Below are positions 3,219 through 10,412 of a stretch of DNA of 22,113 bases, one piece after another. The notes under the pieces were generated by a model. That model worked only from the letters and a program-made list of their open reading frames with translations. It was not told the origin of the DNA and made no database searches. Numbering within the stretch: position 1 is the stretch's first letter; every line of letters starts with the position of its first letter. Origin of the DNA: a virus. The position numbers and the translations under genes are program-made. The stretch covers positions 1 to 22,113 of IMG/VR virus record IMGVR_UViG_3300046385_000033; one strand, 5' to 3'.

Positions 3219-3700
3219 TGGAAAATCTAACACTTTATTTAACTATAGCACAGTGGGTTATATTTACATCTTACATAGCATATACTGTTAGTAAATTTGG
3301 TATTCCTGCTTCCATATCTGATACATGGTATCTGTTGGAGCGTAAAGGTGTGTTGTTTACACTATTCTGTTGGTCATTAGGAGTATGTATGTTATATCAA
3401 GGTAATGATAAGAGTATCTTCTTTGTATTGTCAGGCGTAGGTCTTTCATTTGTAGGTGGTGCCACCATGTTTAAATGGAAAGGTGCTTACACTGATAAAA
3501 TACACGGTGCTGGTGCAGCTATTGGTATTGTATGTGCATTGTTAGGATTGTACATTGATTATGAAATCAGACCACCGTTCATGGTATTTTCAGGAGCAAC
3601 TATTCTTATAAGCTTGTTGCATATCAAGAATCACATATTCTGGATGGAGATAGTAGCTTTTGCCTGTGTAATATCAGGTCTTTTATATAGATTCATATGA
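3218..3700 (+). CDS. Polytopic membrane protein (160 aa)
   Basis: About six hydrophobic segments are visible (roughly 6-27, 43-62, 66-86, 95-112, 117-136, 138-157), so nearly the whole chain is membrane-embedded. The segment S-I-S-D-T-W-Y-L-L-E after the first helix, and the later G-L-S-F-V-G-G-A and K-I-H-G-A-G-A motifs, resemble a family of small integral membrane proteins I recall from Bacteroidota phages. That is memory, not a search. Its role in infection is unknown; remodelling or protecting the host inner membrane is plausible. The gene overlaps the following lipoprotein gene by 4 nt (ATGA). Confidence 0.75.
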   Translation: MENLTLYLTIAQWVIFTSYIAYTVSKFGIPASISDTWYLLERKGVLFTLFCWSLGVCMLYQGNDKSIFFVLSGVGLSFVGGATMFKWKGAYTDKIHGAGAAIGIVCALLGLYIDYEIRPPFMVFSGATILISLLHIKNHIFWMEIVAFACVISGLLYRFI

Positions 3701-3891
3701 AACAACTAATCTTATTAATGATGATAACGGGAGTGTTAGCATCATGTACACGCAGTGTGCCATGTCCTAAAATAATTAATGGTAAACCTATTCATTCTAA
3801 GCAGCTTAGAAAACTTAGACATAAATTAAGGGTAAAATACCATTATCATCAGACTAGAACAGGTAGATTATTTAACTTTAATTTATTTTAA
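3697..3891 (+). CDS. Small predicted lipoprotein (64 aa)
   Basis: The N-terminus is a classic lipoprotein signal: M-K-Q, a hydrophobic stretch to residue 13, then the lipobox L-A-S-C with Cys17 as the lipidation site. The mature part is only about 48 residues, very basic (H-S-K-Q-L-R-K-L-R-H-K-L-R-V-K), with a second Cys at 23. The acidic export signal that often follows the lipid Cys in Bacteroidota surface lipoproteins is absent, which would favour a periplasm-facing location (inference). Small phage lipoproteins such as T5 Llp block receptors to prevent superinfection. A similar role is possible but unproven. Confidence 0.75.
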   Translation: MKQLILLMMITGVLASCTRSVPCPKIINGKPIHSKQLRKLRHKLRVKYHYHQTRTGRLFNFNLF

Positions 3892-4247: not shown

Positions 4248-4426
4248 AGAACAACAAATCACCTGAAATAGAATCACCAGATGTGGTTAAAGCAATTATC
4301 AATGTATTTAGATCAGTTGACAATGAGCTCATGATAGAGCATCAACGCAGCAAGAGACAATATCTTGAGAAGTATAATCTTGATGAGATTAAGACTAACA
4401 CACCTAGAACAGCTCTTGAACAATGA
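4244..4426 (+). CDS. Small hypothetical protein upstream of DNA polymerase (60 aa)
   Basis: Linked on both sides by ATGA overlaps: to the micropeptide at 4244 and to the polymerase start at 4423. The 60 residues are hydrophilic and mostly helical (V-V-K-A-I-I-N-V-F-R-S-V-D-N; H-Q-R-S-K-R-Q-Y-L-E-K-Y). Strict coupling to the polymerase suggests co-expression, but nothing in the sequence shows a polymerase accessory role. Family not recognised. Confidence 0.65.
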   Translation: MKNNKSPEIESPDVVKAIINVFRSVDNELMIEHQRSKRQYLEKYNLDEIKTNTPRTALEQ

Positions 4427-6372
4427 AAGTATTAATCTATGACATTGAAACAATGCAAGAGTTGTTTCTCATTAATGTACTCGATCCTGAAATACATCAA
4501 CAGTATGAATTCATGGTGAGTAAATGGCACAACAATCTTGATGCATTTAGTAAATTCATAGAAGAACATCCTGATTATTATTGGGTGGGCTATAATAATC
4601 TACGATTTGACAGTCAGGTAGTTGAGTGGGTAATGCGCAATTGTGATAAGTGGAATGATTTAACAGGACTAGAGGTGTGTGCTAAAATAGCACAGAAGGC
4701 TCAAGATGTTATACATGATGCTAATTATGATGTATTTCCAGAGTATAGAGAAAGTGATTTGAGTATGAAGCAGATAGACCTATTCAAGGTCAATCATTAT
4801 GACAATAAGAATCGAATGGTTAGTCTAAAGAGACTGGAGTTTGAAATGGATTTGGAGAACATCGAAGAGATGCCAATACACCATACTAAAACTGATATGA
4901 CTCTTGAAGAAATAGAAATCACTAGATCATATTGTCGTAATGATGTGTTTGCTACCTATGAATTCTACAAGGTGACTACAGGTAATACTACTCATCCTCT
5001 ATACAAGGACAATGATCAAATACAATTGAGACTCGACATCCAAGAGGAATTCAAGATTCCATGTCTTAACTATTCAGATAGTAAGATTGGTGATGAGATG
5101 ATTAAGAAGTATTATTGTGAAGAGAGGCACATGTCGTATGACAATCTACCAAAGAAAGGATTCTTTCGTAAGGAGATTAAAGTGAAACAGTGTATAGGTG
5201 GTTATGTAAAGTTCACAACGCCACAGCTACAAGAGTTTCTCAAGAGAATGAAGGCATTAGTATTAGGATTGAATGATGATTTTAAAGAAAGTATAACATT
5301 TTATGGCAACATTTATACGTTCGCTAAGGGTGGCTTACATACGGAGAACAAACCCGAAGTTTTTGAGGCTGATGGAGAGTATGAGATTATTGATTGGGAT
5401 GTTAGCAGTTATTATCCTGCTATTATTATCAATAATGGTAAGTATCCTCAGCATCTTAGTAAAGACTTTCTTCATGGGTATAAGCGTATGTTTGAAAGGC
5501 GTTTGGAACTTAAGCCTCAAGCTAAGAAAGACAAACGCATTGCTGGTATTGTTGGGGCTCTTAAGCTTGCTGTTAATTCCGTATACGGTAAGTCGTCTGA
5601 TATGCAGAACTGGATCTACGATAGACAGCTTACTATGTTTACTACTCTCACTGGTGAGCTTAGCTTGCTTATGCTTATTGAAGCGTATGAAGTAGAAGGT
5701 ATACATGTTATATCAGCTAACACTGATGGTGTCACCATTAGAATAAAGAAAACGCATCTAGATAAGATGCATGAAATTAATGAATGGTGGAGCACACTAA
5801 CAGAATATGAACTCGAACGAACCGACTATAGCAAGATTATCTTCTCGACTGTTAATGATTACCTTGCGATTAAGACTAACGGAGAAATCAAAAAGAAAGG
5901 CGATTTCCTCACTGATTTCGAGTTGCATAAAAATAAGTCTGGGAGGATTGTGCCTATTGCTCTTGAGCAGTATTTCATTAATGACGTGCCTGTGGCTGAT
6001 ACCATTTGCAATCATAGAAACATATATGATTTTGCTATGCGTCAGAGAGCTACGCGTGACTTCCATTTCGAGGGAAGAGCTAATGGGAATGTTACAAAGT
6101 ATAACAAGCTTATTAGATACTATGTCTCAAACACAGGAGAAAAGCTCTTAAAGGTTAAGAAAGAAGATTCTATGTCTGGCGCTGCATCTGTATCACAAGT
6201 TGAAGCTGGCGAATGGCTCATGACTGTATGTAATCATCTAGCAAAAGATCATCCTCTAGATAATATTAATCATTCTTATTATATAGAGAGAGCAGAACGT
6301 ATTATTAACAAGATTAATTATAACGGTAAGAGAAGACCAGTTATAATTCCTAATCAATTAAGTTTATTCTAA
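4423..6372 (+). CDS. Family B DNA polymerase with 3'-5' exonuclease
   Basis: Replicative DNA polymerase of the phage. The proofreading domain is present: Exo I D7-I-E9, Exo II N-L-R-F-D63, Exo III Y170-C-R-N-D174. The palm carries motif A (D326-V-S-S-Y-Y-P), motif B (K381-L-A-V-N385-S-V-Y-G) and motif C (N433-T-D435-G). The first Asp of the usual D-T-D in motif C is Asn here, but the second, metal-binding Asp is kept, so activity is expected. At 649 residues it is short for the family. Short A-to-B spacing leaves little room for the TPR2 insert of protein-primed enzymes, and a primase and helicase are encoded nearby, so RNA-primed synthesis is likely. Codon usage changes within the gene (about 5335-5690 and 5815-6125). 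Confidence 0.93.
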   Translation: MKVLIYDIETMQELFLINVLDPEIHQQYEFMVSKWHNNLDAFSKFIEEHPDYYWVGYNNLRFDSQVVEWVMRNCDKWNDLTGLEVCAKIAQKAQDVIHDANYDVFPEYRESDLSMKQIDLFKVNHYDNKNRMVSLKRLEFEMDLENIEEMPIHHTKTDMTLEEIEITRSYCRNDVFATYEFYKVTTGNTTHPLYKDNDQIQLRLDIQEEFKIPCLNYSDSKIGDEMIKKYYCEERHMSYDNLPKKGFFRKEIKVKQCIGGYVKFTTPQLQEFLKRMKALVLGLNDDFKESITFYGNIYTFAKGGLHTENKPEVFEADGEYEIIDWDVSSYYPAIIINNGKYPQHLSKDFLHGYKRMFERRLELKPQAKKDKRIAGIVGALKLAVNSVYGKSSDMQNWIYDRQLTMFTTLTGELSLLMLIEAYEVEGIHVISANTDGVTIRIKKTHLDKMHEINEWWSTLTEYELERTDYSKIIFSTVNDYLAIKTNGEIKKKGDFLTDFELHKNKSGRIVPIALEQYFINDVPVADTICNHRNIYDFAMRQRATRDFHFEGRANGNVTKYNKLIRYYVSNTGEKLLKVKKEDSMSGAASVSQVEAGEWLMTVCNHLAKDHPLDNINHSYYIERAERIINKINYNGKRRPVIIPNQLSLF

Positions 6373-6373
6373 T

Positions 6374-6724
6374 ATGGGAAAGAAAACAATCACAATGTCA
6401 TATGAGGACTATCAAATGATGTCAATAGAGAATGAGACGTATAAACGTCAGTATGAAGAGCTCCAAGACGAAAAGATGGTTTTTCTTACTTTAGGGACAC
6501 GCGTTACGCACATTAGCCAAATGAGCGGTCAAATTGTTGAGAAAGATAAAGTGCTTAAAAAGATGCAAGAGCATTTAGCTGATTCCAAAAGACGATTTGA
6601 GGAACGTGAAGCTGATTATGAAAGGCGTATTGAAAAATTGAAGGAAGAGTTGTATCAAGCATCTATAAATCCAGTAGAAACAATTGTCACTAAATGGTGG
6701 CATAAATTATTTAAACTATTCTAA
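6374..6724 (+). CDS. Coiled-coil protein with amphipathic C-terminus (116 aa)
   Basis: Starts 1 nt after the polymerase stop. The chain is highly charged and helical, with a coiled-coil pattern from about residue 55 to 95 (K-D-K-V-L-K-K-M-Q-E-H-L; R-R-F-E-E-R-E-A-D-Y-E-R-R-I-E-K-L). The C-terminus K-W-W-H-K-L-F-K-L-F is amphipathic and aromatic, a likely membrane- or partner-binding tip. The same kind of ending occurs in the gene at 6999. Its stop TAA overlaps the next start (TAATG). Function unknown. Confidence 0.7.
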   Translation: MGKKTITMSYEDYQMMSIENETYKRQYEELQDEKMVFLTLGTRVTHISQMSGQIVEKDKVLKKMQEHLADSKRRFEEREADYERRIEKLKEELYQASINPVETIVTKWWHKLFKLF

Positions 6725-6996
6725 TGAAAAAATTAATAACAGTAATCGCATGTGTGGCATTATTGTCTGCATGTGGTAAAAAAGGAGATATAGTTGAAGC
6801 TCCGTCAGACTTCATAATTATTCATGGTAAAACATATAAATTAATGAGGGTTATACCATCTGATGGAGATCATGCTATTTGGATAATGTATCCTAAAGAT
6901 AGTACAGATGCTCAACCTACAATGATTAACTTTGAAGTAAGGACTGGAGGTAAAAGCCATCAAACAGCTAACGAAACAGTAATTAAAGTAGATTAA
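6724..6996 (+). CDS. Predicted lipoprotein (90 aa)
   Basis: The N-terminus M-K-K-L-I-T-V-I-A-C-V-A-L-L-S-A-C has a positive start, a hydrophobic core and the lipobox L-S-A-C with Cys17 as lipidation site. The mature part of about 74 residues is polar and beta-prone (F-I-I-I-H-G-K-T-Y-K-L-M-R-V; H-A-I-W-I-M-Y). It should be exported by the host and anchored in the envelope. It lies two genes upstream of the autotransporter and could be part of the same envelope-modifying group. No family recognised. Confidence 0.75.
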   Translation: MKKLITVIACVALLSACGKKGDIVEAPSDFIIIHGKTYKLMRVIPSDGDHAIWIMYPKDSTDAQPTMINFEVRTGGKSHQTANETVIKVD

Positions 6997-6998
6997 TA

Positions 6999-7355
6999 AT
7001 GGCAGGAACAGAGAAGCAACGCGAAGAGATCAACAGAAAGTTGGTCTCTATGCAAATGGAACTTATAGGTCTCACCTATGAGGACGCAGTGAATACACCA
7101 GAGTTCTGGAGGATATATACACTGACTACAGAACAAACATTAGAATGGCGTAAGGATGCTCTTAAGCTTATCCAGAAGACATTTAAATGTAATAGAAAAA
7201 AAGGAGAGTTAATAAGAGGTATGTTTGAGCTTAATTTAGGACTACGTGAGTATAATCCTCCTGTAGAACCATTAACTGCTTATTTACTAGAGAAACCCAC
7301 ATTCTGGCAAAAGATTAAAAAATTATTTACCTTTACAAACAATTTTAAAAAATAA
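6999..7355 (+). CDS. Helical hypothetical protein (118 aa)
   Basis: Starts 2 nt after the lipoprotein stop. It is mostly helical and charged, with a basic patch (K-T-F-K-C-N-R-K-K-G-E-L-I-R-G-M-F) near residues 65-80. It ends in an aromatic-basic segment (F-W-Q-K-I-K-K-L-F-T-F) like the tail of the protein at 6374. No signal peptide or full transmembrane helix. It is separated from the autotransporter gene by a 12-nt A-rich leader. Function unknown. Confidence 0.7.
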   Translation: MAGTEKQREEINRKLVSMQMELIGLTYEDAVNTPEFWRIYTLTTEQTLEWRKDALKLIQKTFKCNRKKGELIRGMFELNLGLREYNPPVEPLTAYLLEKPTFWQKIKKLFTFTNNFKK

Positions 7356-7367
7356 ATAAAAACTAAC

Positions 7368-8579
7368 ATGAAAAAAATTACGACATTGATTTTTAGCTTA
7401 TTGCTAATTGGTGCAACATTAAGTGTACAAGCACAAGAGAACAAAGGACCAAAAGGAGATAAAGGAGAAAAGGGAGACACTGGAGCAACAGGAGCGAAAG
7501 GTGATAAAGGTGAGAAAGGTGAAACAGGAGCTAAGGGAGACAAAGGTCTTAATGGTACTAACGGTACCAATGGTACAAATGGTATCAATGGTGCTAAAGG
7601 AGATAAAGGCGAACAAGGAGAGCATGGTGAGAAGGGAGAACAAGGGGAAAAAGGAGAAAATGGTGCTACAGGTCCACAAGGTCCACAAGGAGAGACAGGA
7701 GCCACAGGTGCTACTGGGGCTACGGGTGCAACTGGTGCAAAAGGAGATAAGGGAGATACAGGTGCTCAGGGCATCCAAGGTATTCAAGGTATTGCTGGTG
7801 CACAAGGTATCCAAGGAGTGAAGGGAGACAAAGGCAATGATGCTGACGTTCTAACAGAAACTAACAGAGCTAAAGGCGAAGAAGCAAGACTTGATGCAGA
7901 GATCGATATGGAAACAAATCGTGCTATGAAAGAAGAATCTCGTCTTGATCATAAGATAGATTCTGAAACTCACAGAGCAATAACTGCAGAGACCAAACTT
8001 AATACCAAGATTGATGCTGAGACTCATAGAGCTATGACAGTGGAAGGAGAATTAAGAACTTCTATTACAACTGTAGCTACAGACTTGGCAAACACCACTG
8101 TTACGCTTAATAATAAGATTGATAACACTTGGTCTAACACACAGAAATTAGTTTCAACAGAAACAACACGTGCTAAGTCTGAAGAAGCTCGAATTGAAGG
8201 TAAAGTAGATGCTGAAACTATCAGAGCAAAGCAAGCGGAGAATCTATTAGCTGAGACTATCGTTAAGAATGACAAGGCAATTAATCAGAGAGTTGATGCT
8301 GAGTACAACAGAGCAATCAAAGCAGAGACACAATTAGGTATGCAAATTGATGGTGTAGCTGCAATGACTGCTGCATTAGGTGCATTGAGTTCTTCTCAGG
8401 TGTACAATCCAAACAAGCGTGGCAATGTATCTGTAGGCACAGGTGTTTATCGTTCATCATCAGCTATGGCTGTAGGTGGTTCGTATTACACAACCAAGAA
8501 CTCTAAGATAGCTGTTAACGTAGCTTTTGGTAGTAACACTGCAACAAGCATCGGTGCTGGATTCAGCTTAGGATTCTAA
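7368..8579 (+). CDS. Collagen-like trimeric autotransporter with YadA-type anchor
   Basis: Complete type Vc secretion architecture in 403 residues: a cleavable signal peptide (about 1-22, ending S-V-Q-A before Q-E-N); 44 uninterrupted Gly-X-Y triplets (27-158), rich in GDK, GEK and GAT; a stalk of roughly 18-residue repeats with E-T-x-R-A and K-I-D (about 164-328), a trimeric coiled-coil pattern; and a YadA-like anchor (about 331-403), A-M-T-A-A-L-G-A-L then four amphipathic strands with G-V-Y-R-S-S-S-A-M-A-V-G-G and a terminal Phe. Family knowledge: such anchors trimerise in the outer membrane and display the stalk on the cell surface. Expected site is therefore the infected host's surface, not the virion. 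Adhesion, shielding or changed phage adsorption are possible roles. A hairpin terminator follows. Confidence 0.9.
   Translation: MKKITTLIFSLLLIGATLSVQAQENKGPKGDKGEKGDTGATGAKGDKGEKGETGAKGDKGLNGTNGTNGTNGINGAKGDKGEQGEHGEKGEQGEKGENGATGPQGPQGETGATGATGATGATGAKGDKGDTGAQGIQGIQGIAGAQGIQGVKGDKGNDADVLTETNRAKGEEARLDAEIDMETNRAMKEESRLDHKIDSETHRAITAETKLNTKIDAETHRAMTVEGELRTSITTVATDLANTTVTLNNKIDNTWSNTQKLVSTETTRAKSEEARIEGKVDAETIRAKQAENLLAETIVKNDKAINQRVDAEYNRAIKAETQLGMQIDGVAAMTAALGALSSSQVYNPNKRGNVSVGTGVYRSSSAMAVGGSYYTTKNSKIAVNVAFGSNTATSIGAGFSLGF
7446..7841 (+). repeat. Gly-X-Y collagen repeat tract (44 triplets)
   Basis: This part of the autotransporter gene encodes 44 consecutive Gly-X-Y triplets. The 9-nt unit is imperfect, with subclusters such as GTN-GTN-GTN and GAT-GAT-GAT-GAT suggesting local expansion by slippage or recombination. 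It also creates long open frames in other readings on both strands, which I do not count as genes. Confidence 0.9.
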
Positions 8580-8591
8580 TTACACCTCAAA

Positions 8592-8667
8592 GGGTATAAA
8601 ATGATGGAATGACACTATTGGGTTATAAAATAATCAACTTGATTATACCCGATAGTGTTATTTTTTT
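8592..8667 (+). terminator. Compound hairpin terminator after the autotransporter gene
   Basis: ACACTATTGGGT (8612-8623) pairs with ACCCGATAGTGT (8647-8658), one G-T wobble, and inside it ATAATCAA (8630-8637) pairs perfectly with TTGATTAT (8639-8646). A run of T follows (8661-8667). GGGTATAA at 8592-8599 can instead pair with TTATACCC at 8643-8650, so two folds compete. Confidence 0.85.
8599..8610 (+). repeat. 12-bp direct repeat AAATGATGGAAT, left copy
   Basis: Exact match to 9235-9246. The two copies bracket the GIY-YIG gene and its promoter, giving a 636-bp period. Joining the sequence left of this copy to that right of the other forms a long hairpin (8592-8610 with 9247-9263), which suggests an insertion into an older terminator. 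Confidence 0.75.
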
Positions 8668-8715: not shown

Positions 8716-9240
8716 ATGGAAAAAATAATATATGGATTGTATCATCCAATAACAAAAAAACCAGTATATGTTGGTAAATCAACAGTTGGTTTAGATAGAC
8801 CATGGGCTCACATTGATGAAAAGTCTCATAGTAGTAAAGTTAATGAGTGGGTCAATGAACTAAAAACTAACGGACTGAGTCCAGTTCTTATTGTGTTAGA
8901 TCAAGCAGAAACTAATGAAGTTTTAGCTAAGAAAGAAGTTTTTTGGATTAATAGTATCATAAATGATGGATATCCACTTCTTAATCAGTCATTAGTTAAT
9001 CCTGTTTATTTTCTATTAGAATCTTCTTATAATGACGATGATCATTTAAGAGAGATTAGATTATTTATAAAAATGAAAAGAAAACAAAACAAATTAACAC
9101 AACAAGAACTAGCTGACAAGGCTGGTGTAGGAATTAGATTTATAAGAGAGCTTGAACAAGGTCCTAAAACTAATTTCAATATAGAGACTTTACAAAAAGT
9201 ATTATCTCTATTTGGAGTAAGATTATCATTAACCAAATGA
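8716..9240 (+). CDS. GIY-YIG endonuclease fused to XRE/HipB-like DNA-binding domain
   Basis: Residues 1-95 are a GIY-YIG nuclease: G7-L-Y9 and Y18-V-G20 stand for the GIY and YIG elements, then catalytic Arg28 with His32 (R-P-W-A-H), Glu74 in K-K-E-V-F-W-I-N, and the Asn90 motif (L-L-N). All expected catalytic residues are present. Residues about 112-172 form a helix-turn-helix of the XRE/HipB type (L-T-Q-Q-E-L-A-D-K-A-G-V then F-I-R-E-L-E-Q-G). The gene has its own promoter and is framed by terminators, so it is transcribed alone. Likely a free-standing homing endonuclease or selfish nuclease that can repress its own promoter; a defence or inter-phage weapon role is the alternative. Confidence 0.88.
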   Translation: MEKIIYGLYHPITKKPVYVGKSTVGLDRPWAHIDEKSHSSKVNEWVNELKTNGLSPVLIVLDQAETNEVLAKKEVFWINSIINDGYPLLNQSLVNPVYFLLESSYNDDDHLREIRLFIKMKRKQNKLTQQELADKAGVGIRFIRELEQGPKTNFNIETLQKVLSLFGVRLSLTK

Positions 9241-9246: not shown

Positions 9247-9255
9247 TATCCGTCA

Positions 9256-9275
9256 TTATACCCAAAAAGGTATAA
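9256..9275 (+). promoter_or_regulatory. Perfect inverted repeat TTATACC/GGTATAA
   Basis: TTATACC at 9256-9262 and GGTATAA at 9269-9275 are perfect reverse complements with a 6-nt CAAAAA spacer. The same boxes occur upstream of the gene (8593-8599, 8643-8649, 8707-8713). It is either an operator for the XRE-domain protein or a leftover of the terminator arms. Confidence 0.45.
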
Positions 9276-9288
9276 CAATGATGGAAAG

Positions 9289-9317
9289 AAGCCTCACAGA
9301 AATGTGGGGCTTTTTTG
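9289..9317 (+). terminator. Strong terminator after the GIY-YIG cassette
   Basis: AAGCCTCACA (9289-9298) pairs with TGTGGGGCTT (9303-9312), one G-T wobble, around a GAAA tetraloop, followed by a T run. It isolates the cassette from the gene run that begins at 9341. Confidence 0.85.
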
Positions 9318-9340
9318 TTTTACAATTAAATCATAAAACT

Positions 9341-9556
9341 ATGGCTAAGGCTAAAAAACAAAAAGAAGATCAAGTGTATTACTCTGCATCAGTTGAACCT
9401 ATTGAACCAGAGATGGAAATATTTCCTGAATTAACAGCAGAGGATGCTATTGATTATGTTAAGGAAAATGAACCAGACATGAGAGAGATATATCTGTATG
9501 AGATTAAGCTTATTGGTAAGTATAAAGTAAACTACAACTTAGAAAAAATAATGTAA
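9341..9556 (+). CDS. Small acidic hypothetical protein (71 aa)
   Basis: I place the start at ATG 9341, right after the leader motif AAAACTA. An earlier in-frame ATG at 9278 would run the coding region through the terminator hairpin and is rejected. The N-terminus is Lys-rich (M-A-K-A-K-K-Q-K-E-D), the middle strongly acidic (I-E-P-E-M-E-I-F-P-E-L-T-A-E-D-A), and the end basic (K-L-I-G-K-Y-K-V-N-Y). No known motif. First gene of the operon that runs to 16667. Confidence 0.7.
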   Translation: MAKAKKQKEDQVYYSASVEPIEPEMEIFPELTAEDAIDYVKENEPDMREIYLYEIKLIGKYKVNYNLEKIM

Positions 9557-9558
9557 TT

Positions 9559-9858
9559 ATGACACCAACAAATCCAGTATGGATGATTGCAACAACGCAA
9601 GCAGTAAACAATCGTTCGCACCACCATCATCATCAGCATAGTGAAGATGAAGGAACACAGCTATTAGCTATAGCTTTAGCATTTATCATACCATCACTGT
9701 TATGGATTGTATTTACGTCTACTAGACAATTCTTTAAAAGAGATAAATACTACGACTTTTTTGATGAAAATAGTTTTGCATTACTCATATTAGCTGTGTT
9801 TGGAGGATTCACATTATTCGTAGTATTTGTATCATTAATTTACACATTAATTAAATAA
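9559..9858 (+). CDS. Two-pass membrane protein with His-rich N-terminus (99 aa)
   Basis: The N-terminal 30 residues are polar and contain a histidine cluster (H-H-H-H-H-Q-H at about 21-27). Two hydrophobic helices follow (about 34-52 and 74-96), separated by a charged loop (F-K-R-D-K-Y-Y-D-F-F-D-E). The His cluster could bind metal but may be incidental. It is tightly packed (2-nt gaps) between two soluble proteins. No family recognised. Confidence 0.7.
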   Translation: MTPTNPVWMIATTQAVNNRSHHHHHQHSEDEGTQLLAIALAFIIPSLLWIVFTSTRQFFKRDKYYDFFDENSFALLILAVFGGFTLFVVFVSLIYTLIK

Positions 9859-9860
9859 TC

Positions 9861-10412
9861 ATGGGAGGACAAGTTTTTATCGTTAGATCAAGAGGATCAA
9901 ATGTCAATGAGGCATACACAAGTGCTGTAAAAGAAGCAATTGCAGAACATGGCAATGACACCTACAATGGTACAATCAGTACAACAGTTAGCTGTATTGA
10001 TGTAACTAAAAAGTTTCGTGATAGTAAGAAAGAGAGACGTCAGTTTCTTGATGACATGATAGAGAACGCACGTAAGCGTGATTGTTATGCTATTGAAGAT
10101 GTAGCGCCTATCAAGAACAACAACAAGATCAAGTCTGTTGTTGAGCACACTGTTGTTAAAGGTACCAGTAAATGGGAGCTTAGATACAATGTGTATACAG
10201 GATGGGAGGATAGACAATTGAAGTCGTTCAAGACCAAAACTGAAGCTGTTAAGTTTGCTCGTGAGCAGACAGAGAAGACACAGGACAGTACCTTTGTACG
10301 TATGGAAAAGGTTCTTACTAATCAAGATGCTAACGTTGCTTGCATTAAGTATAAGCCATCTCCACAAGAGAGAGAAGGTGTGTATATATTGTTTGGAATA
10401 GCCGCTGAGTAG
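9861..10412 (+). CDS. Conserved phage hypothetical protein (183 aa)
   Basis: The N-terminus M-G-G-Q-V-F-I-V-R-S-R-G, followed by a helix (N-E-A-Y-T-S-A-V-K-E-A) and Y-N-G-T-I-S-T-T, matches a pattern I recall from unannotated phage proteins; their function is unknown to me. The middle is basic and helical (D-S-K-K-E-R-R-Q-F-L-D-D). The C-terminal half is beta-rich (W-E-L-R-Y-N-V-Y-T-G-W). Soluble, no cysteine motif and no catalytic signature. Ends with TAG, 1 nt before the next start. Confidence 0.75.
   Translation: MGGQVFIVRSRGSNVNEAYTSAVKEAIAEHGNDTYNGTISTTVSCIDVTKKFRDSKKERRQFLDDMIENARKRDCYAIEDVAPIKNNNKIKSVVEHTVVKGTSKWELRYNVYTGWEDRQLKSFKTKTEAVKFAREQTEKTQDSTFVRMEKVLTNQDANVACIKYKPSPQEREGVYILFGIAAE

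Follow-up and report, generated by a model that had tools for sequence, protein, structure and literature searches.

The 22.1-kb IMG/VR record analysed here (the window) contains an intact gene, 7368–8579 on the + strand, whose 403 residue product is recognised from its open reading frame, Pfam matches, AF2 modelling and Foldseek comparison as a collagen-stalked YadA-type trimeric autotransporter. To judge from its sequence features, the product is most probably displayed on the surface of the infected cell; that it also shields this cell against further adsorption is a tentative reading. As far as these searches reach, a collagen-stalked autotransporter is new both in the phage order (Crassvirales) and in the host phylum, and it would place a collagen-stalked outer membrane protein in a crAss-like phage, in an order where no other case was found.

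The gene codes for four successive parts. First, residues 1–22 (7368–7433, +) form a predicted Sec signal peptide, with the N-terminus reading MKKITTLIFSLLLIGATLSVQA followed by QENK and cleavage likely between VQA and QEN; by a hydropathy rule, rather than by SignalP, the h-region has a mean of 2.87, two basic residues precede it, and the site is of the AXA type. Second, residues 27–158 (7446–7841, +) constitute a collagen-like region of 44 uninterrupted Gly-X-Y triplets, which matches Pfam Collagen above the curated cut-off (6.4e-23) and contains 14 KGD/KGE motifs, with Pro at position X in only three triplets and at Y in none. Third, repeat analysis places a predicted coiled-coil stalk at residues ~159–330 (7842–8357, +), composed of 18-residue ETxRA repeats that begin at residues 163, 181, 199, 217, 264 and 282, with an extra copy at 311. 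Stalk-like repeats also occur in a gut-phage fibre-like ORF; descent of the stalk from phage fibre coiled coils is not claimed on this likeness, since short repeats can converge. Fourth, a YadA/Hia-type anchor, comprising a helix end and four strands, occupies 8358–8576 (+), and the product ends in GAGFSLGF at the stop codon, with a terminal aromatic residue (Phe) as for BAM recognition. A strong hairpin followed by a U-rich tract lies directly 3’ of the gene (8606–8664, +; −26.2 kcal/mol, z = −7.4) and is a probable transcription terminator. The four coding parts are those that the initial annotation had described in one intact gene ~1 kb downstream of the phage DNA polymerase, and the distance is likewise confirmed, as the polymerase gene (4423–6372, +; phrog_1252, 7.4e-141) ends 996 bp upstream.

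Assignment of the C-terminus to the trimeric autotransporter anchors is supported by both family and fold. YadA_anchor (PF03895) matches residues 346–403 above the curated Pfam cut-off (7.6e-12). In a sequence search against solved structures the best match is YadA (2lme, 5.2e-5), followed by the ‘cell surface protein’ 9gh4 (0.0049), which is taken to be Fusobacterium CbpF, and a 21-sequence anchor profile matches YadA, Hia, 9gh4 and AtaA. The AF2 model built with 21 aligned sequences, a monomer with a mean pLDDT of 68.8, contains one helix (positions 2–33 of the model) and then exactly four strands, with block pLDDT values of ~75–84 over the strands; the helix may continue the 18-residue stalk repeats into the anchor but is poorly scored (pLDDT ~51–59). 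The top five Foldseek matches in the PDB, 3emo, 2gr7, 9vnj, 2gr8 and 2lme, are in that order anchors of Hia, Hia, AtaA, Hia and YadA, so that the last 73 residues yield the YadA-like match that had been set beforehand as the test of the anchor. An AF2 model computed for the 105 C-terminal residues from the single sequence had a mean pLDDT of 49.6 and was not used. The product shares the anchor family and fold, terminal aromatic residue, predicted stalk and predicted signal peptide with the type Vc trimeric autotransporters YadA, Hia, AtaA and CbpF, but it is phage-borne and has a predicted collagen triple helix in place of the head. Neither YadA head nor neck repeats were detected in it.

The gene is not the product of a chimeric assembly, as other contigs cross both of its borders. 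One near-identical record (L002) agrees with the window at 99.99% identity along a stretch of 7,031 bp that spans both borders, and a second (L003), which also spans both, codes for an identical protein; the reading frame is thus intact and identical in three contigs. L003 diverges from the window mainly downstream, at ~9250–9780 (97 differences), which is likely a recombination border within the variable slot described below. The surrounding genes code for the polymerase, a DnaB-type helicase, a Sak4-like annealing protein, a primase and an rIIA-like protein, with the autotransporter gene between polymerase and helicase. Primase and helicase find their best matches in crAss-like phages of the gut and in phages that infect Flavobacterium psychrophilum, Bacteroides and Cellulophaga; the helicase also matches many mycobacteriophages, and the rIIA-like gene matches unrelated phages. 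The window itself carries replication genes and no virion genes, and the phage group is read through a near-complete 114-kb relative (78% polymerase identity) with Crass_capsid (4.3e-27), CrAss_Ring_1 (3.4e-9) and a portal matching crAss001 gp20 (7qog, 5.7e-33). The phage therefore appears to be Crassvirales-like, and because its relative has the capsid, ring and portal genes of that order, it very probably infects a Bacteroidota bacterium, in line with the earlier reading of the locus as an apparent Bacteroidota phage replication region. A search of 25 related records, among them a 48-kb contig of the same phage, found no PF00589 integrase, and lysogenic conversion is accordingly less likely, although the phage's own genome is incomplete. 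Matches to a Bacteroidota promoter pattern number three in the window against 1.2 expected, a count reached in 10% of shuffles and not significant overall; one of them lies just upstream of 8716.

Proteins with YadA-type anchors are not confined to this phage. They are encoded in ~100 annotated phage records, nearly all from phages of Enterobacterales or Aeromonas, and a profile scan of viral contigs yields 22 more loci, part of which are the same phages. Under a fixed hydropathy, n-region and AXA rule, 33 of 39 phage YadA-anchor loci have a signal-peptide-like start, compared with 10 of 228 control ORFs from the same loci. Because one phage is represented by near-duplicates among the 39, these do not amount to as many independent cases, and at least two of the six loci that fail the rule had been read from an internal start only. 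The four-part plan of signal, collagen, coiled coil and anchor, in the same order, is common to phiEco32 gp119 (22 Gly-X-Y triplets), Bas90_0117 (34), the ‘agglutinating adhesins’ of FSL SP-058 (44) and FSL SP-076 (41), Munch_428 (21) and one metagenomic phage (38). Full-plan loci of lytic enterobacterial phages are L172:3578-4255 (phiEco32 gp119), L185:2470-3255 (Bas90_0117), L187:5224-6210, L183:2257-3216 and L176:2894-4216, whose labels vary between tail protein, adhesin and hypothetical; for phiEco32 gp119, translation likely begins at MKAIVLSS, downstream of the annotated start. Several phage YadA-anchor genes, including some of full plan, are located away from structural genes, next to anti-sigma factor, dUTPase or tRNA genes, and AAM22 gp20 lies among small genes on the strand opposite to nearby structural genes. 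The FSL SP-058 and SP-076 copies are not close to tail genes, and a virulence role has been considered for them (Switt et al., PMC3728262). The PHROGs category ‘tail’ nevertheless holds both families, PHROG 26246 as ‘tail protein’ and PHROG 17426 as ‘adhesin’.

The enterobacterial phages with this plan infect Enterobacterales and are unrelated to Crassvirales. Their anchors end in Trp, whereas that of the window gene ends in Phe, and they are 20–33% identical to it (~26% in the alignment with phiEco32), so that a shared function is not assured. Two further scans of viral contigs with anchor profiles added no further Bacteroidota phage, although the strict patterns used make this weak evidence of absence. 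Within the reach of the searches, the gene can thus still be called unusual for its phage order and host phylum; this does not hold for the design, which recurs in phiEco32, Bas90, FSL SP-058/076 and Munch. Eib proteins, YadA-type surface proteins that are encoded by E. coli prophages and bind immunoglobulin, had been offered as the precedent. The comparison is apt in that both are phage-borne YadA-type surface proteins; the window gene, however, has no known immunoglobulin-binding part and belongs to a lineage without an integrase found, and its nearest parallels are the signal-bearing YadA-anchored proteins of lytic enterobacterial phages. It is conceivable, if short of probable, that lytic phages of several unrelated groups, including Crassvirales-type phages, have repeatedly acquired trimeric autotransporters, often collagen-stalked, and that these form an unrecognised class of surface-remodelling proteins deployed during infection, as exclusion or debris-masking rods filed as tail proteins and adhesins. 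Among open-licence papers, none was found that treats phage YadA-anchor proteins as exported proteins of lytic phages. The grouping proposed here brings together the signal-bearing proteins of phiEco32, a Bas collection phage and others, mostly filed as tail protein or adhesin; should their display on infected cells be shown, many ‘tail’ annotations would change, and it would become a simple, testable question what lytic phages gain from remodelling the surface of a host that they are about to lyse.

Sequence evidence supports the signal for export, the collagen triplets, the repetitive stalk and the fold of the anchor, and likewise the location outside virion genes and the recent gain as cargo; together these suggest how the protein may work. 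Made by the phage during infection, the autotransporter would be exported by Sec, three copies would trimerise so that their anchors form a 12-strand barrel, and the host BAM machinery would insert this barrel into the outer membrane, so that the coiled coil and the collagen triple helix project from the cell. The likeliest benefit would be that a fringe of such rods, or a specific interaction, prevents further phages, of its own kind or rivals, from adsorbing to the infected cell and, after lysis, keeps progeny off membrane debris. Superinfection-exclusion proteins of lytic phages stop secondary infection as well as nonproductive adsorption to fragments of lysed cells (PMC9586334). Among these, T5 Llp is an outer membrane protein made in infection that halts further adsorption (PMC9586334); it resembles the window product in proposed role only, being unrelated in sequence and structure and jamming one receptor, and the rods would be an analogue that acts by another route. 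Display with shielding is favoured by the position of the gene, which has its own probable terminator and lies within the replication module close to a predicted lipoprotein, as well as by the recurrence of signal-bearing anchors in other phages, several in non-structural regions, and by the exclusion precedent. The lipoprotein in question (6724–6996, +), small and two genes upstream, is predicted from its lipobox, LSAC, and has a weak LptM_cons match below the cut-off (0.0056). A second small predicted lipoprotein, with a lipobox ending in ASC, is encoded in the same region (3697–3891, +).

Aggregation or adhesion is the main rival to shielding. The displayed protein might aggregate infected with uninfected cells or fix cells to surfaces, such that the burst meets hosts nearby. 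The classical roles of trimeric autotransporters are adhesion and agglutination, the label ‘agglutinating adhesin’ is given to phage relatives, and rods of collagen-like and coiled-coil segments suit reaching out. Against this, no Pfam family other than Collagen and YadA_anchor exceeds its cut-off in the gene, leaving no recognisable head or binding domain, and some phage versions are only 128–194 residues long, with little to reach with. An adhesive function is therefore somewhat unlikely, and the preference for shielding is one of plausibility. Among other collagen-like surface proteins, the collagen region matches streptococcal Scl1 and Scl2 and Legionella Lcl well below family cut-offs, these proteins carry other anchors (LPXTG or other), and the likeness is compositional.

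The gene may instead be cargo of no benefit to the phage, a surface gene of a host or mobile element that entered a hypervariable slot, perhaps with its GIY-YIG-like neighbour, and is being lost. Comparison of relatives identifies two genes kept in most of them as borders of this slot, one following the polymerase on the left (6999–7355, +) and one on the right (9861–10412, +). These borders are 2.5 kb apart in the window, compared with 262–660 bp in many close relatives. The earlier proposal to survey related phages for the gene was carried out on 50 related viral records, ~20 of them other records longer than 100 kb; the anchor is present in the two near-identical records and in none of the 48 others. 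As the anchor is absent from these 48 and the slot is longer than in near relatives, the gene is a recent accessory gain of one lineage, and it is dispensable in that the 48 other records do without it. Immediately after it, 8716–9240 (+) codes for a GIY-YIG-like N-terminal part fused to a Y4mF/HipB-antitoxin-like HTH; the HTH matches TIGR03070 just below the cut-off (1.6e-17), the GIY-YIG part is a weak homing-endonuclease match, and relatives of this gene lie near the same slot in three other records (L007, L012 and L047). Scans of genome contigs for close relatives of stalk and anchor found none, a genome-contig scan with the anchor profile returned one enterobacterial endosymbiont only, and a plasmid search gave mostly enterobacteria, with Arsenophonus as the best match (9e-5) and no donor. 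Restriction to a single phage lineage and the slot lengths are consistent with cargo. However, the frame is intact and identical in three contigs, although this identity may also reflect one recent strain, and retention of the four-part plan recurs among unrelated lytic phages, which points to selection. Cargo without benefit is thus an unlikely account of the gene.

It is less likely still that the protein is a virion fibre, a particle component whose anchor-like end serves as a trimerisation cap. Its best PHROGs matches are tail fibre families and its relatives are filed as ‘tail protein’, yet the best PHROG stretches listed fall on the collagen and stalk. A tail fibre would be expected to lack an export signal and to lie in a structural module; here a Sec signal, unexpected on a virion protein assembled in the cytoplasm, is present, and the gene lies in the replication region, far from virion genes. 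The same phage also offers a comparison. The record of L091, a 48-kb contig from the sample that also yielded L002, shares 99.99% identity with the window across 10.9 kb and contains three collagen-containing genes among fibre-type genes, none of the three with a signal peptide and none with an anchor. From content and location these are presumably of virion type, and they serve as an internal control indicating that virion-type collagen differs from gene 7368–8579. Display on the infected cell is supported by this difference together with the anchor fold, anchor family and signal peptide. The fibre was rejected as the main reading on the Sec signal, the distance from virion genes and the separate signal-less collagen genes, and the earlier view of a protein built for the host cell surface and not for the virion is favoured by the anchor, signal and location. 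By eye, possible sulfotransferase, glycosyltransferase and methyltransferase genes adjoin the collagen-type genes of the same phage (L208:6755-14187).

Proteomic data on other phages bear on the same point. Cyanophage ‘YadA domain’ proteins, in which the YadA-like part may be an anchor or another part, have been found in virions by LC-MS (PMC9146016), and mass spectrometry has detected two homologues: the fHe-Yen8-01 copy carries the annotation particle-associated, and LC-MS/MS picked up the one of fENko-Kae01. The fENko-Kae01 sample was an ultrafiltered lysate that also held ligases and DNA and RNA polymerases; given the polymerases, outer membrane debris is a fair explanation for the detection.

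It is highly improbable that the barrel itself is the effector, a self-inserting trimer that loads BAM and disturbs outer membrane assembly or permeability to aid takeover or lysis with the stalk secondary, as 300 residues of rod are kept in the window gene, even if the shortest phage versions are nearly signal and anchor alone. Such very short proteins are encoded at L181:2863-3246, L204:5794-6207 and L164:5650-6231, and they raise the question whether a barrel alone has any function. A further, apparently exported protein occurs in the 114-kb crAss-like relative, where L212:8503-10230 on the − strand codes for a signal-peptide-bearing protein of 576 residues that includes a cohesin domain (6e-8).
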